From Halobacterium hubeiense (lineage in GTDB: Archaea; Halobacteriota; Halobacteria; Halobacteriales; Halobacteriaceae): a stretch of DNA of 64,000 nt. Each line of letters opens with the position of its first letter. Positions within the stretch are counted from its first letter, which is position 1. The DNA lies in the NCBI RefSeq assembly GCF_001488575.1, contig NZ_LN831302.1, positions 1,116,001 to 1,180,000 of the forward strand, given 5' to 3'. The position numbers and the translations under genes are program-made. The notes beneath the pieces are model-generated. The model was not told the origin of the DNA. It did no database searches and worked only from the letters and a program-made list of their open reading frames with translations. This document shows, in pieces, positions 46,002 to 61,035 of the stretch.

Positions 46002-46901
46002 TCATGCCCGATATCCCAACGCTTCGAGGTTTTCATCGACTGAGGATCCCTCCGGATGGTCTGTCGCTGTGACACCCGCGTCGACAATCGATTTCCGTTC
46101 GTTGCCTTCAATTACAGCCCATGGGACATCCACCAGCGATGGTATACGGACCCCCCCGGGGTGCCCATACACGCGCATCGGGAGGACTGGTGCTCGCTCA
46201 CCGAGGGCATTTCCATGGTCACTGGTAACAACCGTCCGCCCTGGGATGTGTTTGAGGAGTGTTTCCAGTTCTTCGAGTACGAGACGCAGATTGTCCGCGT
46301 ACAGTGACCATATTTCCTCGCGTGTAGCCTCACCTCGTGCGAGCGCCTTCCATGGGTTCCGTTTGGTCGCCGCGTCGAAGGGGCTGTCCGCTCCGAGAAA
46401 TGGCCGGTGTGGTTGCAGGTAGTGAACGAGTAGTCGTTTGTCAGGATGTCGTTCCGCCGCGTCGAGGGCTCGCGACGTCATCTCTTCGGGGGTCACAACG
46501 TTGTCGACTTCATCCCAGACTTCCACCATCTCGTGGAACGTGTCGTCCACCACCTGTGAAACCCACCCGTTCGACGAGAGATACACCGTGTCGCCTAGTT
46601 CGCGGCCGGCGAAGTTTTCGCGTGCCCACTCCGGAGTTTTACTTCCCAGACTCGTGACACGGTTGTATTCGTCGAACCGATTCAAGTCCGCAACCTCCTC
46701 GAATAGGTCGGCGCGGCACCCATCAAGGACGATTAGGTTGTCCCAGTCCTCCTCCATCAGCCGAATTGACCCCCGCTTTGTCGGATACAGATTCGTGTGA
46801 AACGGGCCTAGGACGTGGTTCGCGAGGCGGTGTCGCCACCAGAAGCTGTCGTCATAGTTCTCCCGGATCTCGTCGTATGCGTACGAAAGTTTCTCGATCA
46901 T
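46002..46901 (-). CDS. Alkaline-phosphatase-superfamily protein, sulfatase-like
   Basis: 299 residues from ATG 46901 (a GTG precedes it). Superfamily marks are LIVLDGCRADLFEE with the metal Asp D60, and VVTSDHGNALGE near the C-terminus. The usual nucleophile segment ending in LTG is not recognisable, so activity may differ from true sulfatases. The N-terminus has a helical region without a signal. Its start overlaps the stop of the next sulfatase-like gene, so the pair is co-translated. It probably edits or transfers a charged group on the glycan. Confidence 0.8.
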   Translation of the reverse strand: MIEKLSYAYDEIRENYDDSFWWRHRLANHVLGPFHTNLYPTKRGSIRLMEEDWDNLIVLDGCRADLFEEVADLNRFDEYNRVTSLGSKTPEWARENFAGRELGDTVYLSSNGWVSQVVDDTFHEMVEVWDEVDNVVTPEEMTSRALDAAERHPDKRLLVHYLQPHRPFLGADSPFDAATKRNPWKALARGEATREEIWSLYADNLRLVLEELETLLKHIPGRTVVTSDHGNALGERAPVLPMRVYGHPGGVRIPSLVDVPWAVIEGNERKSIVDAGVTATDHPEGSSVDENLEALGYRA

Positions 46902-48031
46902 CACTTGTATCCAAGGTCCTGCAAGTCCTCTTTGAGGGCGTCAGTTCGGTACACTGTATCGGGGTCGAAACGATTCCATCGTCTAGTGAGTTCTCCCCGG
47001 GCCGAAACGTTGTTAGCGTCGATGCAGTCTCCGTTGAGCGTACGGAAATCTGTGCCATTATAGAGATACTCCTCGTCCATGACAGCCTTCTCTTCACCGT
47101 ATGTCGCGTAGGCGTGCGTCCGGTTGAACTCCCCCTTCCCGAACGGTTCGCCCAGCATTATGGACCCGATGTCGATGTGCGAGACGACCGTCCCGCTGTC
47201 CCAGTTCACGTTCCGCGTTCCGAACGGGACCCTGAGTAATTCTGGTGCCATCACCCCCGGATGACCCCACGACGGCTCATAGTCCTCGCCCAGCAACTCA
47301 CCGTGGTCAGCGGTGAAAACGACCTCCGTGTCCGACGACAGGCTGTCCCACAGGTCCGAGAGTGTGGCGTCGAGTTCTCGAATCTCTTGTTCGTACGCCC
47401 TCCCGACGAGTGTCTCATCCTCTTTTGACCCATTTCCGTTTAGCACCCGTCGGCTAGCGTTCTGAGCTTCGACCCGCCCCATCTCCCCGTCATCAGGCTC
47501 ATAAGGATGATGTGGTTCCATGAGGTGAATCCATCCCAGCCACTCGTCACGTCCCTCAATTTGTGTCAGCAGCGTTTCGATGACGTCCTCGGCGGGGCGG
47601 AATGTCCGCCCGACATCTTTGAACTGGTTTCGAACGCTCTGGAGCGCGTTCCAGCCGGTCGAGAGCAGTCGATGGTGGATCGTCCCCGGCGTGACAGCCT
47701 TCTCGACTCGCTGCTTGAGGCCCATGTCGCCCGGGTTCGGGGCTTCGAAGTAGTCGAAGGCGTGACCATATCCGTACCGCTCCGAGAGCAGGTGGTTCGT
47801 GGAGATGCCGACAGTGTAGCCATCGAACTCGGCGGCGAATTCGGCCATCTCGTCAATACCGCCCGGAGTGGGGTACTGTCCTGTGAGAATCCCGGGGAAG
47901 CTTCCCGGAGTCGCGGTGCTGACCGCGAACGCCGTCTCGTGAGAAGCATCGAGATAATCCTGTGTCGCTGGCATCAGGTGGTACTTATCGTACCGGAGGG
48001 AGTCCACCGTTACCAGCAGCTTCCCAGACAT
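46901..48031 (-). CDS. Sulfatase-like alkaline-phosphatase-superfamily enzyme
   Basis: 376 residues. Starts KLLVTVDSLRYDKY, with metal Asp D10. The nucleophile region reads STATPGSFPGILTG, putting Thr41 where sulfatases have cysteine, and VFTADHGELLGEDY carries the second metal site. There is no signal peptide. Thr at this position is known in phosphoglycerol-transferase-type members, so it may be a transferase rather than a sulfatase. Coupled to the gene at 46002 by overlapping stop and start. Confidence 0.85.
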   Translation of the reverse strand: MSGKLLVTVDSLRYDKYHLMPATQDYLDASHETAFAVSTATPGSFPGILTGQYPTPGGIDEMAEFAAEFDGYTVGISTNHLLSERYGYGHAFDYFEAPNPGDMGLKQRVEKAVTPGTIHHRLLSTGWNALQSVRNQFKDVGRTFRPAEDVIETLLTQIEGRDEWLGWIHLMEPHHPYEPDDGEMGRVEAQNASRRVLNGNGSKEDETLVGRAYEQEIRELDATLSDLWDSLSSDTEVVFTADHGELLGEDYEPSWGHPGVMAPELLRVPFGTRNVNWDSGTVVSHIDIGSIMLGEPFGKGEFNRTHAYATYGEEKAVMDEEYLYNGTDFRTLNGDCIDANNVSARGELTRRWNRFDPDTVYRTDALKEDLQDLGYK

Positions 48032-48230
48032 GGCGACAACTTCCTCTTCGAGGATTATAAGTGCGGCTTTTCAGGTGGGAACCGGGCCAGTGATCCGATG
48101 ACATAATAATCGCAGATTCACATTCCATTCGTCCAGTGGAGCGAAACTAGTTATATTGAGGGACACCTCCTCAAAGGTACCATCTAAACATTAAAGGGGA
48201 TGCCTCGCCTATTATTTTCTAATTTCAGTG

Positions 48231-48872
48231 ATGTTTAGGAATCTTTTCCAGCCAGTATACGACCAATTTCGGACAGTGTTACCGCGGAAGCAGAGCACCT
48301 GTAATGGCGTCAAGACTCGACGCGCCTACTTATTCGACCGGACAACGAAGTGGCCGGACTACGAGGAGGAACTTCTCGCGACGCTGCGAACGCACGTTAC
48401 CCCAGATGACTCCGTTGTTATCGTCGGTGGAGGCTGGGGCGTTTCAGCAGTTACCGCCGCAGAACGAGGCGCCACGGTGACGGTTTATGAACCGAGCAAT
48501 GAGCAGGTAGAGCGGGTCAAGGAAACAGCGGACCTCAACGACGTGGTTGAGTCGGTCACGGTTCAGCACGCAAAAGTCGGTGAAACCGGCGAGGTGTGGG
48601 GAAAAAGCTCGGCGTCCGTCGTATCACCAAGCGACCTACCGGAATGTGACCTTCTCGAACTCGACTGTGAGGGGGCGGAGTTGGAAATACTCCGTGCGAT
48701 AACGGTTACGCCGGATGTCATCGCCGTCGAGTGTCATCCAAGCCACGGTGTGTCTGAGGACGATGTACGAGCCGTGATGACTGACCTCGGCTACGAAATC
48801 ACGAATAGGGCTCACGAGAGCCAGTCGGACAGCGTTGTCATACTCACTGGGGAGTTGCATTCGGGCTCCTAG
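48231..48872 (+). CDS. FkbM-family methyltransferase
   Basis: 213 residues. The SAM-binding strand is SVVIVGGGWGVSAVTAAERG, followed by VTVYEPSNEQVERVK and an FkbM-type core (CDLLELDCEGAELEILRAI). It would add methyl groups to sugar hydroxyls, which fits a glycan locus. The start at 48231 or the GTG one codon before it are both possible. Upstream sequence is AT-rich (ATTATTTTCTAATTTCAG). Divergent from the two sulfatase-like genes. Confidence 0.83.
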   Translation: MFRNLFQPVYDQFRTVLPRKQSTCNGVKTRRAYLFDRTTKWPDYEEELLATLRTHVTPDDSVVIVGGGWGVSAVTAAERGATVTVYEPSNEQVERVKETADLNDVVESVTVQHAKVGETGEVWGKSSASVVSPSDLPECDLLELDCEGAELEILRAITVTPDVIAVECHPSHGVSEDDVRAVMTDLGYEITNRAHESQSDSVVILTGELHSGS

Positions 48873-49732
48873 ATGGGATCCCAAGTCTCGTCAATCGACC
48901 ATCGCAGTCTCAGATATGTTCTGTGTGAAAATTGTCTCTAAGAAGATAGAGGTATTTGTTACGATGACTTGAGACGATTAACGATACGAACTTCGCATTT
49001 CGTCACGGCTCCCCTTCAGAACACGCGACTCGAAGATACCTACTATTATTTTCGGTTTCAGATTGCTGAAGACGAGCTGGTCTCTATCCCAGTTCCGAAC
49101 GTCGCGTCGATCTGACGGCCCCGTCAAATCCCAATCCTACACCTGAATACGGCGTGGTGACGAGTATGAACCGAATCTCGTCTCGAAATTGGAAACTGGT
49201 TTGAGTGAAATTAACGATTTTATGAGATTGAGGATCGATTCGGATTTTTATCAAATACTCGGATCTGGTTGGCGCTCAGCCAGAGTATATCCGCTCATGC
49301 GAGGTGAACTAATGTCGCTACTATCTGTTACAGGAGAACCTTAGTCACGGGGGCAAGTCGTCCATTCCTGTGTAGATTCGTCGACCGGTGGTGATTAGCG
49401 AGTGTCAACAGATATACGGACCGTCACAAGTCACCCCACAGTCGTTAAAATCAATGCCAAGGGCGCAGAGAATGACGTTCTTTAGGGGTTGATAACGATA
49501 AGAGAATTCCCCGAAACTTTACGTCGAAATCCATCCGCAACTACTGGCTCAGTTCGGACGTACCGATGAAACTCTCCTACAGCTATTAGAGCGCCACGAA
49601 TATGGGTATTCAAATCCAGAAGCATCGCGAGTCGGGAGACCAGTGAGGTCACGCGATAGGCGAGCAACCGGCAGAGAGAACCTATCTTCTCCGCGCCGAA
49701 CGGAAAGACCGTATAAGACCGAACGAAATCGG
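48873..49732 (+). other. AT-rich 860-base stretch, gene-poor
   Basis: Low GC compared with neighbours, with no complete gene convincing to me. A 57-codon fragment is listed separately at 48942-49115. The small minus-strand frame at 49482-49667 lacks convincing composition. The base shift suggests a deletion scar or recent insertion in the glycan locus. Confidence 0.45.
48942..49115 (+). pseudogene. Possible gene fragment in AT-rich gap
   Basis: From a TAA at 48939 to a TGA at 49113 one frame runs 57 codons with natural-looking sequence (YYYFRFQIAEDELVSIPVPN) but no good start. It may be the C-terminus of a lost glycan gene. No family is recognised and it may be chance. Confidence 0.25.
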
Positions 49733-51157
49733 TCAGATATAGCCCAAGTCTTCGAGCCGTCCTTTCGTCGCGTCGTCAACGTCGACAGACTGTTCGGTCG
49801 CCTCGGCCTGCCGCTTGTAATCCGCCAACGGAACGTCGAACAACTCCGTGGCCCATTCAGGCACGTCCTCCAACGAGCCGACTTCCTCCTGCCATGACGA
49901 TTTCGAGCGGTTGATCCGGTACTCTGTTTGGTTGCCCCTCGAGTCCCACTCAACCTTCGTTTCGTCGCGGTACACGCAGCGAATCATCCGGTCCCAGAAC
50001 TCGTACTCCTCGTCGTCGGGGTCGGGACCGCCGACGCCCATACCGACCACCTCGGCGGGCACCCGGTCCCGAAACGTCGGGTCCGGATTGCCTTCGACCA
50101 TGCCGACAATGAGGTCACCAAGGTCGAGGTGGGAAAACAGGTCAGTGTAGGTATCCTGCATCCCGTCCGGCGCATTAACTATGTAGAGCGGAACGTGAAG
50201 GAGTCCCTCGGTGAGACTGCTCGTGTGGCCGATCCATCGATTGTCCGCCGGGTAGACCAGATTCTCGCCGTGGTCTGCGGTGATGAGGAAAATTGTCTCC
50301 TCGTCAGTCTGCTCCTGCACGTCGTCGATGAACTCCGACACCTTCCGGTCGAGGTAATCGATAGCAGTAGCGTACAGTTCGCGGTGGTACTCGATATCCT
50401 CCTCGTACGCCTTCCAGTTCCCGCCGTTGATGTCCTGATCATCGAAGTTGAACGAAGTCCAATCATTCGGGGCCGAGTGCATGCTCCGGTCGTATCCTCG
50501 GACGTGATGTACCGGCCCGTGAGCGTCCATAAAGTTCGTGAAGAGGAAGAACGGTTCGTCGCCTTTCACCGCTTTCGAGCGGGCGCTCCGTGCGACGACA
50601 CTTGCTCCGTCGTCGAGTAATTTCGGGACCGGAGCTCGTCGCAGGAGGTCGTTCAGTTTGAACAGCCCGCCGTTTGCGAGACTCTGAAGAGGATGCTCGT
50701 GCGCGGCGCTCTGGCGGAGGAACTCGACGTACCGCGCAAGTCCTGTTTCCTCGCGTTCCTGAATGAACTTCTCCATGTCCATTCCGTCAGGAAACCGCCG
50801 ATGGGGGGCAATATCGGAGTAATCGTCAAAAATTGCATCAAAGCCGAACGTGGAGCTAGCGTATACGTTTGCGCTCGCACCGTACGCGCTGTGGCTCGGG
50901 AGGTTACCGAGGAACGTATCGTCTCGGCTGATACCGGTGAAGACACGATTATGCGTGTGGACGCCGTGCTGGTGGGGGAGTAATCCCGTCATGAAACTCG
51001 GATGGCTCGGGACGCTCCACGAACTCGCTGCTCGGCACTGGTCGAAGGACACGTTCGCGCGAGATTGAATTCGTGTCGCGTGTTCGTCGAAGAAGTCCTT
51101 TCGTACCGAGTCGAGAACAATCAGGACGACGTTTGGTGTGGGTTGTGAATCAGTCAT
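49733..51157 (-). CDS. Sulfatase-like alkaline-phosphatase-superfamily enzyme
   Basis: 474 residues, no signal peptide. Metal Asp in VVLIVLDSVRKDFF, nucleophile segment SSWSVPSHPSFMTGL with Ser48, and LITADHGENLVYP near the middle. The motif is S-V-P-S-H, with His replacing the Arg of the C/S-x-P-x-R sulfatase signature, so formylglycine-type maturation is uncertain. It is longer than the other two AP-superfamily members of the locus. Its ATG overlaps the stop of the upstream GT4 gene by eight bases. Confidence 0.85.
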   Translation of the reverse strand: MTDSQPTPNVVLIVLDSVRKDFFDEHATRIQSRANVSFDQCRAASSWSVPSHPSFMTGLLPHQHGVHTHNRVFTGISRDDTFLGNLPSHSAYGASANVYASSTFGFDAIFDDYSDIAPHRRFPDGMDMEKFIQEREETGLARYVEFLRQSAAHEHPLQSLANGGLFKLNDLLRRAPVPKLLDDGASVVARSARSKAVKGDEPFFLFTNFMDAHGPVHHVRGYDRSMHSAPNDWTSFNFDDQDINGGNWKAYEEDIEYHRELYATAIDYLDRKVSEFIDDVQEQTDEETIFLITADHGENLVYPADNRWIGHTSSLTEGLLHVPLYIVNAPDGMQDTYTDLFSHLDLGDLIVGMVEGNPDPTFRDRVPAEVVGMGVGGPDPDDEEYEFWDRMIRCVYRDETKVEWDSRGNQTEYRINRSKSSWQEEVGSLEDVPEWATELFDVPLADYKRQAEATEQSVDVDDATKGRLEDLGYI

Positions 51158-52196
51158 GATGGAATGAAGTTATCGCGTCTCTGAACTCCGCTGCCTGAGT
51201 ATCTTCCGTTATGTTAATAACCTTCTTTCGCTGCCCTTTGCCGAGTTCCACTCGCTCCGCTCCGGGCCGTTCGAGCGTCTTTCGAAGCGTCTCAGTGAGG
51301 GATTCGGCTGTGAGTTCGGCGACGACGGAGTCGTTAACAAGTTCTCTTGCCCCGACGCCGGTCGTGACGACAGTTGGCGTCCCCGACAGCATGCCCTCCG
51401 CTGCCGCGACCGAAAATGCATCTCCGGAAGAGGGTTGCACGTACAGTGTCGCCCGGTCGAAGAAGTCGACGAACGTCTCGATATCGACGTATCCGGGTGT
51501 CTCTATCTCTGGCCGTGTGCTGTACGGCTCATCAGGGTGGTCAGGACCGAGAATCGTGAGCGAAATGTCGTCGCGCCACCGGTCCCGGAGAACCGAGACG
51601 GCATCACAAAGCATCGGGTAGTTATTCGCGGGCTTCGCAGTGCCGACGGTCAAGAGGTGGATACCCTCCGATGTCCGCGAGGAGGGCGTCAGTGCGCGGA
51701 GCTGTTCGTGTTTGGCGTCGACGATGGGCGGATACACTTTCTGCGACGGGACGCCGTCGATGTAGCGGCGAACCGACGCATCGACGTCGTCGCTAATCGG
51801 GATGACGCCGTCGAGCAGTCGACTCGCCACGGGCCCGAGTGCGCGCCACAAATAGCGGGTCGGACGGCCGTCGAGTTCATAGAACGTTTCGTCGGCCGCG
51901 AGGAACACGAGCGTCGCATCCGGGTTTATGAGACCATACGCGAGGAGAGTCTGAAGCGGTGCGGAGCCCTCCGCGATGACTACATCGTAGGACCGTGAGA
52001 GCGATAGTCCGGTCCTCAGTCGGTCGAATTCGGAGTGGGTGTTTCCCCGACACTCCCCTCGTTCGTCGCCTGTCTCGAAATGAACGAAGTCGGCGTCGAC
52101 CGCAGTTCCGAAGGTGACGTGTGCCGGGTGAGGGTCATCACCCTGATACAAGAGGCACACTTGCTGAGACGAGAGTAAATCGGACGACGGGGGCAT
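51150..52196 (-). CDS. GT4-type glycosyltransferase
   Basis: 348 residues, soluble. The donor-domain signs are LLTVGTAKPANNYPMLCDAV, then VQPSSGDAFSVAAAEGMLSGTPTVV, which contains the E-x7-E-like segment. The N-terminal domain is shorter than usual and begins with a Ser/Gln-rich stretch. It should extend or modify the lipid-linked glycan. It is the first gene of an operon with the sulfatase-like enzyme at 49733, joined by overlap. Confidence 0.82.
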   Translation of the reverse strand: MPPSSDLLSSQQVCLLYQGDDPHPAHVTFGTAVDADFVHFETGDERGECRGNTHSEFDRLRTGLSLSRSYDVVIAEGSAPLQTLLAYGLINPDATLVFLAADETFYELDGRPTRYLWRALGPVASRLLDGVIPISDDVDASVRRYIDGVPSQKVYPPIVDAKHEQLRALTPSSRTSEGIHLLTVGTAKPANNYPMLCDAVSVLRDRWRDDISLTILGPDHPDEPYSTRPEIETPGYVDIETFVDFFDRATLYVQPSSGDAFSVAAAEGMLSGTPTVVTTGVGARELVNDSVVAELTAESLTETLRKTLERPGAERVELGKGQRKKVINITEDTQAAEFRDAITSFHHD

Positions 52197-52356
52197 TAGT
52201 TGTAACTAGTTCGCGGGGCCATATTTCCCTGTTGGTCGTTGGAGACGTGAGGCATAAAACCGTTGCTGAACTGCCAATCGACACAGTGAGCCGCGATTGG
52301 AGGGGTACCGGGGTTCGTCAAACTAAAGTGGCGCCTCCGTATTCTCTGGTGTACTG

Positions 52357-53646
52357 ATGAAACCGCCACGTTCGAGGTTTTTTTCCCGCTATTTGTCGCA
52401 AATACAGTCTCAGACTACACGGTCTGAACAGCCCCTCGTGTTTGCCGCCGCTGCGCTCTTTCTCGTGTATCCGGCCATCGTGGCGGTTGCAACCCTTCTC
52501 GGGGCATCCTTTGAGCTGAACTTCATGGATTTCGGCGCTTACTACAGCGCTGCCGGGCGCTTTTTGGAGGGGGGATCACTGTACTATACACCCTCTCGAC
52601 CCGCGGCGCCGTCCCACCCTGGTGGAGTGTTCCCCTACCTCTATCCACCGGTCGTTATTGTACCGTTCATCCCGCTCGCGCTTCTGCCGTTCTGGGTGGC
52701 CGCTGGTATTTGGGTTACCGTGTCTCTCGCGGTCGCGGTTTTCGGTGCTAAGACACTCCTCAACGCGTATGATATCCGTCTATCGCGAGCGAAGATGCTC
52801 CTGCTCGCCTACGGTATTTTTGCGTTCGCGCCGACACTAATTTGGTTCAAGCTCGGACAAGTTACGGGGATGTTCGTTGGGAGCCTCTGTTTCGCAGCCG
52901 CGTCTCTCGAACGCAATCCCGACGGCAGATTCGGGTGGTTAGGTCTTGCACTGTTGCCGGCGGTCGTGAAACCCCCTTACGCAGTCACGATGGCTCCAGC
53001 TTTGAATGACTACCAGCGCGTACTCCGAGTAGTCATCCTCGGAATTGCCGTCATCGCGGTGAGCGTATTACTGTTCGGCATTGAAGCGCACGAAGCGTAC
53101 CTCGGGGTCCTCCGTGAAGGGAAAGGTTGGCACCTCGATGCACTCCCGATTTCGAAGTTCAGCTTCTTCGTCTTTCGTCCATTTCACGTCCTCGGGTCGG
53201 CCCGAATCGTCCTTCGCGGTGTCCTCCTTGTCGCGTTAGTAGGTTACGTGCTGGAGCGTAGATCTCGTCGGCCCCGCGTCGAACGCGCGCTGTTTGCGCT
53301 CGGCTGCGCTGCCGTCCCCGTGCTCCATCCGACGGTGAACACTCTAACGCTCAACGCTCTCATCCCGGCCTACCTAATCGTGTTCGTGTCGGAGTTCCGC
53401 CGGTCAGATGGGGCGCTCACTATACCACTGCTGTCGCTCGTGCTCGTTCAAATTCATCCCTACGCCACATCTGTTTTATCGTGGATCGGAATAGGGGCAC
53501 TATCTCCGCTTGACCCCCTCACCCCACTCGTTCCAGTCCTTCAGCCGGGACTCTGGGGAATCGTATCTCTCGTCGCATTCATCGTTTATCGTATCGAACG
53601 CGACGAGGGTGGTTTCCCGCTTCCTGAGGATGGTAGCGTTCGCTGA
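52357..53646 (+). CDS. Polytopic GT87-like (DUF2029) glycosyltransferase
   Basis: 429 residues with about ten membrane helices. The GT87 signature lies in the first exterior loop: NFMDFGAYYSAAGRFLEGG, with the catalytic-type acidic residue, and PYLYPPVVIVPFIPLALLPFW follows. VKPPYAV is in the fifth loop. Such enzymes use polyprenyl-phosphate sugars outside the membrane. It could add a final sugar after flipping. Convergent with the second GT87-like gene at 53659. Confidence 0.82.
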   Translation: MKPPRSRFFSRYLSQIQSQTTRSEQPLVFAAAALFLVYPAIVAVATLLGASFELNFMDFGAYYSAAGRFLEGGSLYYTPSRPAAPSHPGGVFPYLYPPVVIVPFIPLALLPFWVAAGIWVTVSLAVAVFGAKTLLNAYDIRLSRAKMLLLAYGIFAFAPTLIWFKLGQVTGMFVGSLCFAAASLERNPDGRFGWLGLALLPAVVKPPYAVTMAPALNDYQRVLRVVILGIAVIAVSVLLFGIEAHEAYLGVLREGKGWHLDALPISKFSFFVFRPFHVLGSARIVLRGVLLVALVGYVLERRSRRPRVERALFALGCAAVPVLHPTVNTLTLNALIPAYLIVFVSEFRRSDGALTIPLLSLVLVQIHPYATSVLSWIGIGALSPLDPLTPLVPVLQPGLWGIVSLVAFIVYRIERDEGGFPLPEDGSVR

Positions 53647-53658
53647 CCGACGCTATCG

Positions 53659-54969
53659 CTACGGCGTACCCGATACAGCACGTCGCGCCCACCAGAGCGC
53701 CAGCGCGTAGAATGCGAGAACGCCGTAAACGCCGGGCTGGAGGAGCGTGAGCGCTGGGTGTGCATTCAACAGGCCCACAAGGTTCGCGTGACCTGATCCA
53801 ACGACGACTTCCATCACATAGGTGTGTACGTGCGTGAGAACGAATGCTCCACCGAGAATCGCAAACGACCAGCCGCCGGCCCGGAATGCGTGAACACCGA
53901 ACACGACGAACGCCGCCAACACCAGTCCGAGGTCAATAAGCGTCGTGCTTCCGAGGACGGTGAACAACAGGAGAATCGAGAGCGCGTACAGCGCGATGTC
54001 CGCCTCGTTTCGTCGGACGTAATGTACGAACACCCAGACTACGGGGACGATAGTGAGGAGGCGAGCGAATACCGCGTACTCCCCGAGGAACCAGAAGACG
54101 TTGAGCGCCTCCACACCCCATGTTGTGACTGGTCCGATGCTCTTGGACGACCCAAGTAGTGTGTCTACGATGATGCCATAATACTCAGCAGTGGTGTCGA
54201 ATCCGAACGTCGCCACGGATAGCGCGTTCGCCGCCATGATAGTGAAACCGAACCCGAGGATGCCACGCCACCGATTGTTATCGAGAGACGCGAAGACCAT
54301 GGTAGGTGCGGCCCAGTAGGGCTTCACGAGTGTCGCCAGCGCGATGGCTGTACCTCCTCCGGCGTATAACGAGCGTCTATACGACCACCACGCAACAGCG
54401 GCACACAGATACGCGAAAGGAGTTATTTGGCCAACTTTGAAGTTTGCGACCATTGGGGTGAACCCGAGCGAAGCAACGGAGATACCGGTTAACGTCCTCT
54501 TTGACGGGTGGAAATCAACGTATGCGGCCTCGGTATCGAGAAAGAGGTACGTCCCGAGTCCGGTAGCGAGAAGCGACAGGCCAAGCAGAAGAAATTTGTA
54601 GGCGACGTAGCCGAATTGGGAAACTGCCGCAAAAAAGTAGTAAGTAACTGGGAAGTAGTGAAACTCTTGAATATTGTCTGGTTGCCACGTGTTATAGAGT
54701 GGTCCACCGCTCCACACACGAATAACCATGTTGTAGAATGCGTCGGTATCAGTGGGACGCTCAATAGCGTAACGGTAGTCAGCCTCTGGTGGAACAGTAA
54801 TATCGCCTTCGGGACTTATCTGGGTTGTCGTGTACTGAATGTCTCCTGTTTCCGTCGTCTTGAGCGTACCAGTTCCAGCTAGTACGCCGACTAGAAGTAT
54901 ATTTAGGATACATAAGGAGAGGCATATCAAAAGAATAGTTCTTCTAGATGGGGATTGAAGGATCGACAT
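53659..54969 (-). CDS. Second polytopic GT87-like (DUF2029) protein
   Basis: 436 residues with about ten membrane helices. Acidic loop residues lie in TDTDAFYNMVIRVWSGGPLYN, then FHYFPVTYYFFAAVSQFGY, and ATLVKPYWAAPTMV corresponds to the VKP segment of its neighbour. It is divergent in sequence from the protein at 52357 but has the same plan. Both probably act on dolichol-linked sugars at the outer face. The first membrane helix follows directly after the N-terminus. GC is lower than the core. Confidence 0.8.
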   Translation of the reverse strand: MSILQSPSRRTILLICLSLCILNILLVGVLAGTGTLKTTETGDIQYTTTQISPEGDITVPPEADYRYAIERPTDTDAFYNMVIRVWSGGPLYNTWQPDNIQEFHYFPVTYYFFAAVSQFGYVAYKFLLLGLSLLATGLGTYLFLDTEAAYVDFHPSKRTLTGISVASLGFTPMVANFKVGQITPFAYLCAAVAWWSYRRSLYAGGGTAIALATLVKPYWAAPTMVFASLDNNRWRGILGFGFTIMAANALSVATFGFDTTAEYYGIIVDTLLGSSKSIGPVTTWGVEALNVFWFLGEYAVFARLLTIVPVVWVFVHYVRRNEADIALYALSILLLFTVLGSTTLIDLGLVLAAFVVFGVHAFRAGGWSFAILGGAFVLTHVHTYVMEVVVGSGHANLVGLLNAHPALTLLQPGVYGVLAFYALALWWARRAVSGTP

Positions 54970-55183
54970 TTGTCGGCCTATGGAAGATGCATATTAATAT
55001 AGGTTGGTTTTGAGGGGGCATATATTGTTCTTCTCTATGGACTTGCACTATCGCTTATACTAGTTTGAATTTATATTAAAGAATTCTAAGCAACTCTAAA
55101 CGCAGTCTCTCGGTCGTACTTTACGATTTCTACCTTCTCCAACTTCACAAGGCTTATTCGCGCGCTGTCAGTCCCTACCACCA

Positions 55184-58100
55184 ATGAGCGAGAAGAACGA
55201 GAAGTCGAGAGCATCCTCCACTTCGACCGATTCAGCTCTCGACGCTCTCGAAAATTGGTACCACGTACCCGTGCTGGGCGCTGTCCTCGCGTTCATGTTC
55301 TGGGTGCGCGTGCAGGCGTGGGAGAACTTCACGCAGAACGGCGAAGTGTACTTCTCCGGAAACGACGCATACTACCACTTCCGGGAAGTGATGTACACGG
55401 TCCAGAACTGGCCGTCGACGATGCCGTTCGACATCTGGACGAACTTCCCGAACGGAACCGCAACCGGCCAATTCGGGACGCTGTTCGACCAAATCATCGC
55501 CACCGCAGCGCTCATCGTCGGACTCGGTAGCCCCTCTCAGGAAACGATTTCGATGACGCTGCTGTTTGCGCCAGCGGTCTTCGGCGCGCTGCTCGTCATC
55601 CCGACGTACTTTATCGGGAAGCGGCTGGGTGGCCGTCTCGGTGGTGTATTCGCCGCAGTCGTTCTCGGTCTCCTGCCGGGCTACTTCCTCTCGCGGAGCC
55701 TCGTCGGTGCGGCTGACCACAACGGCGCGGAGCCGCTGTTCCAGTCATTGGCAGTACTCGCGACGATGATTGCGCTCACCGTCGCACAGCGAGAGAAACC
55801 CGTCTACGAGCAGTTCCTCGACCGCGACGTCGCCGGCCTCCGCCGCGTCGTCGGCTGGAGTGTCGTCGCTGGCGCTGCCACCGCAGCCTACATGTGGGTG
55901 TGGCCGCCGGGCATCCTGCTGGTCGGCATTTTCGGTGTGTTCTACCTCGTGAAGCTGACGAGCGACTACTACAGCGGCACGAGCCCGGATCACGTCGCCG
56001 TCGTCGCTGGCGTGAGTTCGGTGACGACCGGCCTGCTGATGTTGGTGCCGCTGTCGACGCTTTCCTTCTCGCCAACGAACTTCTCCATCCTCCAGCCGCT
56101 GTTCTCGATTGCGGTCGGTGTCGGCGCGGTGTTCCTCGCCTGGCTCGCCCGCGAGTGGGACAACCGTGAACTTGACGCCACTTCGTATCCGTTGGCCGTC
56201 TTCGGCATCCTTGTCGTCGCGCTCGGTGCGACGACCGTCGTGCTCCCCGAGTTCTGGGGCATGCTCCAATCGAACCTTCTGCGCTTCGTCGGCTTCAGCG
56301 CCGGCGCAGCCACCCGCACTATCGGCGAGGCGCAGCCGTTCCTCTCGCAGACGAGCCGCTACGGCCTCGGGATGTTCGGCGTCATCTTCCTCGAGTACGG
56401 ACTCGCGTTCCTCACTGCATTCCTCGGCGCAGCGTGGATTCTGCTCCGGCCGCACTTCCGGAGTGGCAACCCACGGCGGATGGGTGGCGCAGCGGCCGCA
56501 GCCTTCGTGGTTGGGCTCGTGTTCGTGGCACCGGGCATCGGTGACGCGGTCGGCACGCTCCTCGGCGTCGACGGTCAGCTCGGCTCGCTGGCCATTGTCG
56601 CCATAACGCTGCTTGCGGTCACGGTGACTGGCGACTACGACGCGGAGAAACTGCTTGTCGTCGTCTGGGGCGCGTTCATCACCTCGGCGGCGTTCACGCA
56701 GGTGCGGTTCAACTACTACCTCGTCGTGCCGGTCGTGGTGCTGAACGCGTACGTGCTGAAAGTCGTACTCGGTCTCGTGAGCCTCGACAAGCCGGCCGCA
56801 CAGATCGAGGATGTCGATTGGTACCAGGTCGGGACGGTCGTCGCCGTCGTGCTGGTCGTGCTCGTCCCCATCGCGGCCCCCGTTGCCGCGTCCGCGACCG
56901 GTGACGGTGCTAGCCCGATTCGGCTGACGAACAATCAGGGCCAGCAGGTGCCGCTGCAGTCCGCGACGACCGTCGGCGCATCGCACGGCCCGGGTGCGGT
57001 GACGGTGTGGGACGACGCGATGGAGTGGATGCAGAACAACACGCCCGAGCAGGGGAACTTCGGTGACGCGAACAACGCCGATCAGCTGGACTACTACGGG
57101 ACGTACAGCCAGACCGACGACTACGACTACCCCGAGGGCGCGTACGGCGTGATGTCGTGGTGGGACTACGGTCACTGGATGACCGTCGAGGGCGAGACGA
57201 TTCCGGTCGCGAACCCGTTCCAGCAGAACGCGGACAACGCGGCGAACTTCCTGCTCTCGCAGAACGAGACGGAGGCCGCGAACGCGCTCGACGTCGTCAA
57301 CGAAGACGACGCGCAGACGCGGTACGTCGCGGTAGACTCCCAGATGGTCTCCCCCCAGCAGAAGTTCGGCGCGCCCATCCAGTTCTACGACGGTCCGCGG
57401 AACGTCAGCACGGGGACGTTCTACACGCAGAACATCCTCTCGCAGTACGGTGAGGACGGCCAAGTCACGAACTACGGGGCGTTCCAGCAGCTCCCGACGC
57501 TGAACCATCAAGCGTACTACGAGTCGATGATGGTGCGGCTCTACCAGAACCACGGGAGCGCACAGCAGCCCCAGCCGGTCGTCGTCGACTGGCAGGACAC
57601 CTTCCAGACGGCGACTGGCGCGGACCTGTACAGCTTCGACCAGTCGGCGTCCCCAATTCAGCAGTTCAACAGCATGAGCGCGGCCGAGCAGTACGTCGCC
57701 AACGACACTACCGCCCAGATCGGCGGCTTCGGGAGTAACCCGCCGGAGTACGTCGAGGCGCTGGAGCACTACCGGCTCGTCGGCACGAGCGACGACCAGG
57801 GCGTGAAGCTCTTCGAGCGCGTCGAGGGGGCGACCGTCGAGGGCACCGGCCCCGCGAACACGACGGTCACCGCGTCGGCCACGCTGAACATGACCCACCT
57901 CTCGCAGGGCAACCAGACGCCGCAGTTCGAGTACACGCAGCGTGCCGACACTGGGCCGGACGGCGAGTTCACGATGACGCTCCCGTATGCTACAACTGAT
58001 TACGAGGCATATGGGCCAGCAAACGGGTACACGAACACGTCGGTTCGGGCAACAGGCCCCTACGAGATCACGAGCTCCTCCACAATCACTGAAGACCGCG

Positions 58101-58399
58101 AGATTGTGACGTGGAACACGACCGCTCAGATCACCGAAGGCCAAGTTATTGGCGAGAACGAGACCGCCTCAACAGTCGAGCTAGACCGTCACGTCAGCGG
58201 GACGCTCGGCGATACGAACAACACGACGCAGAATAATACAACGCAGACGAATGTTGCATCGTCCGAAATCACAGCAGACTCGGTCAAATCCACAGAGACG
58301 ACGCAAGCTGACCGATTAGACACCCAATCCCCGTTCGGTGCGGCCGCCGCGTTCGTCGCGCCCGCCGTCGTCGGCGCGCTCGGTCGGCGGTACGCATAA
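55184..58399 (+). CDS. aglB: Oligosaccharyltransferase AglB
   Basis: 1071 residues. AglB moves the glycan from dolichol phosphate to asparagine in N-x-S/T of S-layer and archaellin proteins at the outer face. The N-terminal half has about 13 membrane helices. The first loop metal site is in SGNDAYYHFREVMYTV. The hallmark WWDYG is at about residue 660 (VMSWWDYGHWM). A C-terminal exterior domain follows, rich in NTT sites that could be self-glycosylated, then a final hydrophobic segment. GCTTATTC at about 28 bases before the ATG is a possible TATA. It overlaps the DUF368 gene by one base. Confidence 0.95.
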   Translation: MSEKNEKSRASSTSTDSALDALENWYHVPVLGAVLAFMFWVRVQAWENFTQNGEVYFSGNDAYYHFREVMYTVQNWPSTMPFDIWTNFPNGTATGQFGTLFDQIIATAALIVGLGSPSQETISMTLLFAPAVFGALLVIPTYFIGKRLGGRLGGVFAAVVLGLLPGYFLSRSLVGAADHNGAEPLFQSLAVLATMIALTVAQREKPVYEQFLDRDVAGLRRVVGWSVVAGAATAAYMWVWPPGILLVGIFGVFYLVKLTSDYYSGTSPDHVAVVAGVSSVTTGLLMLVPLSTLSFSPTNFSILQPLFSIAVGVGAVFLAWLAREWDNRELDATSYPLAVFGILVVALGATTVVLPEFWGMLQSNLLRFVGFSAGAATRTIGEAQPFLSQTSRYGLGMFGVIFLEYGLAFLTAFLGAAWILLRPHFRSGNPRRMGGAAAAAFVVGLVFVAPGIGDAVGTLLGVDGQLGSLAIVAITLLAVTVTGDYDAEKLLVVVWGAFITSAAFTQVRFNYYLVVPVVVLNAYVLKVVLGLVSLDKPAAQIEDVDWYQVGTVVAVVLVVLVPIAAPVAASATGDGASPIRLTNNQGQQVPLQSATTVGASHGPGAVTVWDDAMEWMQNNTPEQGNFGDANNADQLDYYGTYSQTDDYDYPEGAYGVMSWWDYGHWMTVEGETIPVANPFQQNADNAANFLLSQNETEAANALDVVNEDDAQTRYVAVDSQMVSPQQKFGAPIQFYDGPRNVSTGTFYTQNILSQYGEDGQVTNYGAFQQLPTLNHQAYYESMMVRLYQNHGSAQQPQPVVVDWQDTFQTATGADLYSFDQSASPIQQFNSMSAAEQYVANDTTAQIGGFGSNPPEYVEALEHYRLVGTSDDQGVKLFERVEGATVEGTGPANTTVTASATLNMTHLSQGNQTPQFEYTQRADTGPDGEFTMTLPYATTDYEAYGPANGYTNTSVRATGPYEITSSSTITEDREIVTWNTTAQITEGQVIGENETASTVELDRHVSGTLGDTNNTTQNNTTQTNVASSEITADSVKSTETTQADRLDTQSPFGAAAAFVAPAVVGALGRRYA

Positions 58400-59334
58400 T
58401 GGCCGGGCACGACTGGCTGGCGGTCTACCTGAAGGGTGCCGCGATGGGCGCCGCGGACGCCGTCCCCGGCGTTTCGGGCGGGACGATCGCGCTCATCACG
58501 GGCATCTACGAGCGCCTCGTCGGCGCCATCGCGGCGCTGGACCCCGTGGAAGCGCTGGGCTTGCTCGCGCTCGTCCCACAGCTCGGGAGCGCCGACGCTC
58601 GCGGGGAGTTCGAGGAGACGCTCGTCCGGATGGACGTGCCGTTCCTCGCACTACTAGGCATCGGCGTCGTTACCGCCGTCGTCACCGTCGCGAACGTCGT
58701 CCACGTCGCTATCAACGACTTCCCGGGCGTAACGTTCGCGTTCTTCTTCGGACTCATCGCGGCCTCCGTCGTCGTGTTGCTTAGCGAAGTCACGCTCGAC
58801 ACACCAGGCAGGGTCGGGGCGGCCGTCGTCGGGTTCGCGCTCGCGTTCGTCCTGAGCGCGCAAGCGCAGACCGGCGCGCTCCCCGACGTGCTGCCCATCG
58901 TCTTCCTCGCGGGCGCCATCGCCATCTGCGCAATGGTGCTGCCCGGCGTCTCGGGGTCGCTTCTGTTGTTGACGCTGGGGTTGTACGACACGATGACGTC
59001 GGCGGTCAGCGACGCGACGGACGCCGCGCTCGGCGGCGACCTCGGCGCGACCGTCGAACCGGTGACGACGCTCGTGGTGTTCACGGCGGGTGCCGTCGTG
59101 GGCGTGCTGTCGTTCGCGCGCGTCGTCGAGTGGGCGCTGGACCACTACCGGGCGGCGACGCTGACGTTCCTCGTCGCACTGATGGCGGGCGCGCTGCGGG
59201 CGCCGGCCATCCAGATTAGCGACGCGAACCCCGAGTGGACGGCGGCGAGCGCGGGCGGCGTCCTCGTCGCGGGCGTGCTCGGCGCGGCGGTCGTGCTCGT
59301 GCTGGACGCGACGACCGACGACCTCGACTACTGA
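58399..59334 (+). CDS. DUF368 (PopT-type) lipid phosphate transporter
   Basis: 311 residues with about eight membrane helices. Two related motifs mark the inverted repeats: DAVPGVSGGTIALITG near residue 20 and MVLPGVSGSLLLL near 180. The bacterial relatives (PopT) carry undecaprenyl phosphate back across the membrane after glycan transfer. Its ATG overlaps the aglB TAA, so it is made together with AglB. Recycling of dolichol phosphate released by AglB is therefore a sound inference, not shown. Confidence 0.85.
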   Translation: MAGHDWLAVYLKGAAMGAADAVPGVSGGTIALITGIYERLVGAIAALDPVEALGLLALVPQLGSADARGEFEETLVRMDVPFLALLGIGVVTAVVTVANVVHVAINDFPGVTFAFFFGLIAASVVVLLSEVTLDTPGRVGAAVVGFALAFVLSAQAQTGALPDVLPIVFLAGAIAICAMVLPGVSGSLLLLTLGLYDTMTSAVSDATDAALGGDLGATVEPVTTLVVFTAGAVVGVLSFARVVEWALDHYRAATLTFLVALMAGALRAPAIQISDANPEWTAASAGGVLVAGVLGAAVVLVLDATTDDLDY

Positions 59335-59393
59335 CGCCGACAGTTCCCGCCGCTGGAGGTGGGGTTTTCCTCGCCGCGCTCGAACGCACAGCC

Positions 59394-59756
59394 ATGCTTC
59401 CCTTCGACGACGAGACGGTCACGCAGGTCGCCGCCGACGCCGGCGTCACCGAGTCGGCGCTCCGCGAGGCCGCCAAATCCGTGCAGGCGACGCTGGCCGA
59501 CTTCCCGGGGCTGACCGTGGACGGCCTCGTCTACGAGTGGCGGCAGGCGTTCCGCGAGGACCCGCTCGTGGAGCGGCGGCCCGACGCGTGGATTCTGCGC
59601 GTCCCCGAGCGCGTCTGGGCGGACGTCCGCGAGCGGGCGGTCATTCCGAATGACATCGAAGACGCGCTAATGGCGCTGTACGCGACGGAAACCGACGAAG
59701 ATGGAGGCGGCGTTGCGCTCGTGATTGCGCGCAACTCGGCGACCGAATTGCGGTGA
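59394..59756 (+). CDS. DUF5800-like conserved haloarchaeal protein
   Basis: 120 residues: DDETVTQVAADAGVTESALREAAKSVQ at the N-terminus resembles a helix-turn-helix, then WRQAFREDPLVERRPDAWILRVPERVW. It appears limited to haloarchaea; the family number is from memory. It follows the DUF368 gene by 59 bases and may share its message. Function unknown, perhaps DNA-related given the first region. Confidence 0.75.
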   Translation: MLPFDDETVTQVAADAGVTESALREAAKSVQATLADFPGLTVDGLVYEWRQAFREDPLVERRPDAWILRVPERVWADVRERAVIPNDIEDALMALYATETDEDGGGVALVIARNSATELR

Positions 59757-60345: not shown

Positions 60346-61035
60346 CTATAGTTGGTTGTCCACGCGCCTGAAGTCGGTCTCGCAGGGCGGGCCGTCCGCG
60401 AACTCGTAATCGACCCCGCCGTCGGCGCGAACCGTCACGAGCGACGACGACCGCGTGCCGTAGCCGTCGCGGTGGACGCACGCACCAGTCTCGTGATCGC
60501 GGAGCGCGTTCCGGGCTGCCTCGCGCCACGCGTCCGGGCTGTCGTGACCACGAAGTGCATCGCGGACCACGCTGGACTTCTCAGTGCCGTCGTCGAAGCC
60601 GGCGTTCACGACGACGTGGGTCCCGGGGTTGAAGGCGTGCGTCCGCAGCACGCCGTCCCACTCCAGGAGCACGCACTCGTGTTCGTCCGCGATGACGAGG
60701 TTGAACCCCGCGTACTCGCGGTCGGCGACCTCACGCTCCACAGTTTCAATCGCGTCGTCGGCGGACCCGGCCGCGAGCGCGTCAGTGACGAGGCGGCCAC
60801 GGGAGCGCTCGCCCTCGATGTCCGTATCTCGATTCGTCACGCCGACGAACACGCGGTGCTCGTTCACGCCCAGCCACGTGCCGCCGGCTTCCTCGTCTCT
60901 GGGCATCAGCACCTCGGGATTCGCGCCGCGGACGGCGGGCGGCGAGGACGGCCGGCCGACTGCTTCGTCGCGGTTCGCCCCGACCACGAGCGGCGCGTCG
61001 TCGTAACCCTGCCACGCGAATGCCAGCGTACACAC
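60346..61035 (-). CDS. NRDE/TANGO2-family protein
   Basis: 229 residues. The hallmark is ANRDEAVGRPS near residue 20, preceded by MCTLAFAWQG, with GTWLGVNEHRVFVGVTNR and GFNLVIADEHE further on, then DGYGTRSSSLVTV. The N-terminal Cys2 fits an Ntn-hydrolase-like nucleophile after Met removal. The eukaryotic relative TANGO2 is linked to haem or lipid metabolism, while archaeal roles are unknown. Single gene between regulators. Confidence 0.88.
   Translation of the reverse strand: MCTLAFAWQGYDDAPLVVGANRDEAVGRPSSPPAVRGANPEVLMPRDEEAGGTWLGVNEHRVFVGVTNRDTDIEGERSRGRLVTDALAAGSADDAIETVEREVADREYAGFNLVIADEHECVLLEWDGVLRTHAFNPGTHVVVNAGFDDGTEKSSVVRDALRGHDSPDAWREAARNALRDHETGACVHRDGYGTRSSSLVTVRADGGVDYEFADGPPCETDFRRVDNQL

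Follow-up and report, generated by a model that had tools for sequence, protein, structure and literature searches.

In most haloarchaeal genomes, the gene for the oligosaccharyltransferase AglB is directly followed by one for a membrane protein of the DUF368 family, and we consider it likely that this protein serves AglB by returning dolichol phosphate across the membrane, the two genes forming an ancestral haloarchaeal unit. To our knowledge, there is no established transporter for returning the spent lipid carrier after archaeal N-glycosylation. The pair described here lies in a stretch of Halobacterium hubeiense DNA, 64,000 nucleotides long, which was analysed as a whole and is referred to below as the window (Table 1).

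Table 1. Features of the aglB–DUF368 pair and its immediate surroundings, in window coordinates
Feature	Position	Strand	Basis
Possible TATA-like box, ~28 nt 5' of the aglB ATG (weak)	55153..55159	+	by eye
aglB (1071 aa), archaeal oligosaccharyltransferase of the STT3 family	55184..58399	+	PF02516, AglB_core, AglB_L1, TIGR04154
WWDYG catalytic motif of AglB	about 57158..57172	+	sequence and translation
TAATG, one base common to aglB stop and DUF368 start	58397..58401	+	sequence
DUF368 gene; membrane protein of 311 aa, polyprenyl-phosphate transporter-like, predicted to return dolichol phosphate	58399..59334	+	PF04018
First signature motif MGAADAVPGVSGGT, residues 16–29	58444..58485	+	alignment
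Second signature motif MVLPGVSGS, residues 179–187	58933..58959	+	alignment
Stem and T-rich stretch 3' of DUF368, where the two-gene unit may end (weak)	59345..59373	+	consensus scan

The product of the first gene is identified as an archaeal STT3 oligosaccharyltransferase on two counts: its score of 870 bits against TIGR04154 (archaeo_STT3) lies above the curated cut-off of 450, and it contains the WWDYG motif. At the level of individual domains, it scores 82 bits against PF02516, 69 bits against AglB_core and 54 bits against AglB_L1, with PF02516, PF22627 and PF18079 all above cut-off. A weaker second STT3 homologue is found elsewhere in the same genome (G000:C1:160890). The position of the TATA-like box, picked out by eye, hints at a leaderless aglB start; inspection of the sequence upstream of the DUF368 ATG revealed no AT-rich box comparable to that of aglB.

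The second gene, the only one of its family in the source genome, encodes a protein that scores 220.8 bits against PF04018 (gathering cut-off 26) and covers positions 1–227 of the 246 in the profile. It carries the marks by which DUF368 proteins are recognised – two conserved PGxSG motifs, with an acidic residue preceding in the first. When 101 haloarchaeal, 22 other archaeal and 59 bacterial DUF368 sequences were compared, M16, G17, D20, P23, G24, S26, G27 and T29 of MGAADAVPGVSGGT proved common to all three groups, as did M179, L181, P182, G183, S185 and G186 of MVLPGVSGS. Its scores against the NCBIfam equivalogs NF052563 and NF052564 (PopT and VCA0040), 93.2 and 196.7 bits, fall below the cut-off of 400, and it is therefore classed as a member of the DUF368 family rather than as PopT or VCA0040 itself. 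PF04018 is the sole domain found in it; the VTT domain (PF09335) of the DedA/UptA proteins was not. The AlphaFold2 model is helical and has a mean pLDDT of 92.1, but despite this confident model neither sequence nor fold comparison (E ≤ 0.001) yielded a solved structural relative in the PDB. No viral relatives of the protein were found in viral contigs.

The PopT family members VCA0040 of Vibrio cholerae and SAOUHSC_00846 of Staphylococcus aureus share with the window protein both the Pfam family and the two signature motifs. Unlike them, the window protein is encoded with an oligosaccharyltransferase in a host without peptidoglycan, and its presumed substrate is dolichol phosphate instead of undecaprenyl phosphate. 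As reported by Sit et al. in 2022, the H. volcanii DUF368 protein HVO_RS12060 partly replaces VCA0040, an undecaprenyl-phosphate translocase, and the authors comment, in general terms only, on a possible relevance of their results to dolichol phosphate (PMC9876793). Like the window protein, HVO_RS12060 is a haloarchaeal member of the family; Haloferax relatives of the window protein are about 51% identical to it and lie beside aglB. The evidence for HVO_RS12060 consists of complementation in V. cholerae only, and linkage to aglB is absent from the available parts of that paper (PMC9876793). An earlier report of the linkage was not found in the literature searched, though priority is not certain. 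The complementation result is thus prior work, and what the present analysis adds is the linkage to aglB.

An earlier note on this DNA had read the DUF368 start codon as overlapping the aglB stop, and so it does: in the junction gcaTAATGgcc, TAA (58397–58399) and ATG (58399–58401) have a single base in common. In the overlapping cases, this arrangement may couple the translation of the two genes. Among 68 pairs in which the distance from stop to start was measured, overlaps of 1 or 4 nt occur in 11 – a generous count, as the choice of start preferred codons near the aglB stop – and the gap is no wider than 10 nt, overlaps counted in, in 34 of the 68. The remainder have gaps of 11–157 nt, the wide ones notably in family f3. 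The exact overlap of stop and start is a local trait, not the norm of the class.

For a wider view, we searched 292 genomes of the class for the positions of both genes and tallied the distances between them. DUF368 was found in 289 of the 292 and aglB likewise in 289, both being placed in 286; because each is near-universal in the class, their co-occurrence is uninformative. Their arrangement is a different matter. The earlier note had staked its case on DUF368 not being rare beside aglB elsewhere, and rare it is not: in 191 of the 286 genomes it is the very next gene downstream of aglB, without exception on the same strand, and in a further 12 it lies within 3 kb (1.8–2.7 kb). The two are apart in 83 genomes, either far from each other on the same contig (44) or on different contigs (39, partly an effect of draft assemblies and contig breaks). 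Direct adjacency is found in 18/18 genomes of f1, 82/103 of f4, 30/72 of f3 and 30/58 of f2 among the larger families, and in 6/7 (f6), 7/7 (f7), 10/10 (f8), 6/6 (f9), 2/3 (f10) and 0/2 (f11) among the smaller. Set against a random-position expectation of about 0.002 per genome, this is far beyond chance; the genomes are not independent, yet nine of the ten families surveyed contain the pair. The single clear exception in the class, a near-complete 1.9 Mb genome (G021, L209), has aglB and lacks DUF368.

In the mechanism that we propose, AglB would, at the outer face of the membrane, attach to protein the glycan carried by dolichol phosphate and leave bare dolichol phosphate outside; the DUF368 protein would then bring it back to the cytoplasmic face for reloading by the Agl glycosyltransferases. 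The substrate of DUF368 would accordingly be dolichol phosphate, the direction of transport inward, and AglB dependent on its neighbour. The haloarchaeal glycan carrier is described as mainly dolichol monophosphate (PMC3871713, PMC4476749), and AglB should therefore release dolichol phosphate directly at the outer face; a phosphatase should then be dispensable, so that the haloarchaeal system could isolate carrier return on its own. A bolder version, to which we give rather less than even credence, has a dedicated return transporter not only encoded with the oligosaccharyltransferase but perhaps also physically coupled to it, making release and return one unit.

How far such a role could extend is limited by the distribution of the family. 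Of 197 genomes sampled across the phylum, roughly 160 fall outside the class; 28 of these have DUF368, and in none of the 28 is it adjacent to STT3. In Methanosarcina acetivorans, Sulfolobus acidocaldarius and Methanocaldococcus jannaschii, STT3 and VTT-domain proteins occur without DUF368. The description of DUF368 as "the archaeal" recycler of dolichol phosphate, as the earlier note put it, thus does not hold for archaea in general. Looser linkage in the non-halobacterial family f30 (three genomes, L118–L120, with DUF368 about 13 kb from STT3) was not counted, since genes for thermosome, TiaS, a histidine kinase and other unrelated proteins intervene in the best-annotated of the three.

The other known polyprenyl-phosphate transporter family, DedA/UptA, has VTT-domain members in 69 of 70 haloarchaea, which makes redundancy likely and means that DUF368 may not be the sole recycler. 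This breadth, together with the VTT-domain proteins of the DUF368-less Methanosarcina, Sulfolobus and Methanocaldococcus, would also suit a scheme in which DedA/VTT proteins are the main archaeal dolichol-phosphate recyclers and DUF368 is auxiliary, of importance only where salt is high or conditions are alkaline, much as the V. cholerae DUF368 protein is reported to be needed only under alkaline or high-sodium conditions (PMC9876793). We judge this unlikely, given that DedA/UptA, a family separate from DUF368, is without linkage to aglB: none of the 150 DedA-type genes listed (from 67 genomes, with aglB placed in 62) lies within 1.5 kb of aglB, whereas DUF368 does so in 39 of the same 62 genomes. 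Furthermore, the UptA model, with a cut-off of 250 bits, gives the two DedA-type proteins of the source genome no more than 25 and 19 bits, and they may belong to other DedA subfamilies.

The pair has neighbours that belong to glycan assembly on dolichol phosphate. In many genomes, a gene for an AglG-type glucuronosyltransferase (521 and 534 bits against NF041394, with a cut-off of 440) is oriented divergently to aglB, and one for a Wzx-like flippase lies directly upstream in Haloferax and Haladaptatus. Haloferax-like genomes (L201–L208), identified by DUF368 proteins 74–93% identical to a named Haloferax protein, have a gene for a UDP-glucose dehydrogenase (AglM-like) in the interval from aglB to DUF368; this gene runs against the pair in L208 and with it in L204. 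The agl cluster of H. volcanii runs from aglJ to aglM and includes aglB, aglG and aglM (PMC5867893) – the same gene types as found here beside aglB and DUF368. As described, that cluster ends at aglM, and DUF368, being the next gene past the AglM-like one in the Haloferax-like genomes, would by analogy be the next gene beyond its edge. In the window itself, aglB adjoins a glycan island (46901–54969) with two GT87-type genes, one GT4 glycosyltransferase gene and two sulfatase-family genes. On the other side of the pair, a small ORF on the forward strand (59394–59756) begins 60 bases past DUF368 and has no Pfam or NCBIfam match in its frame, and a TANGO2-like protein (PF05742, 105 bits) is encoded further downstream on the reverse strand (60346–61035).

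A protein adjoining an enzyme that requires a flipped substrate might itself do the flipping, that is, DUF368 might flip glycan-charged dolichol phosphate outward for use by AglB rather than act as a return transporter; AglR, proposed for DolP-mannose, aside, the available portion of one account of H. volcanii names no flippase for the pentasaccharide precursor (PMC3871713). Several genomes, however, carry Wzx-like flippase genes beside aglB, and bacterial DUF368 proteins are reported to act on the bare carrier (PMC9876793), which leaves this alternative highly improbable.

The proposal of a return transporter gains further from the age of the pairing. When 102 DUF368 proteins were placed in a maximum-likelihood tree, all main haloarchaeal branches proved to contain aglB-adjacent copies; since these include the deep branches, the pair is ancestral and adjacency the older state. 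Separated copies fall mostly in one supported subclade (100/97) from families f2 and f3. One f3 genome, G005, carries both an aglB-adjacent copy and one of the displaced type (L116, L117), which suggests a later replacement of DUF368 in part of that family; the same genome offers a natural test of DUF368 redundancy. A second separation is seen in genus g10 of f4, where aglB moved and DUF368 retained its downstream genes. As for persistence, flanks were compared for 26 pairs: no gene family is found within 4 kb upstream of aglB in more than 12 of them, and the most frequent one downstream of DUF368 is present in only 8, so that the pair is more durable than its surroundings.

This last observation speaks against reading the linkage as envelope co-expression only, with DUF368 moving some other anionic lipid or serving another polyprenyl-phosphate pathway. 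The separation of the genes in 83 of the 286 genomes would fit such a reading, as would the unrelated genes – for chaperonin, UreF, MutS-like and peptidase proteins, among others – that surround displaced copies, but a pair kept across families while everything else turns over makes it improbable to much the same degree as an outward flippase. The neighbours of displaced copies were also considered as a clue to function; they are mixed, with a GT2 glycosyltransferase near six loci, and give no clear signal.

For haloarchaea, then, the earlier note's proposal of DUF368 as recycler of dolichol phosphate remains plausible: the protein belongs to the family and keeps its motifs, its linkage to aglB is ancestral and specific, and partial complementation by a haloarchaeal member has been published (PMC9876793). 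Other archaea, mostly without DUF368, must use something else, the DedA proteins being obvious candidates. In nearly every haloarchaeon, by comparison, the conserved pairing names one candidate gene, for which Haloferax volcanii and Halobacterium salinarum are hosts that allow a direct test, and if haloarchaeal recycling of dolichol phosphate does depend on DUF368, the N-glycosylation cycle of archaea would gain its missing final step.
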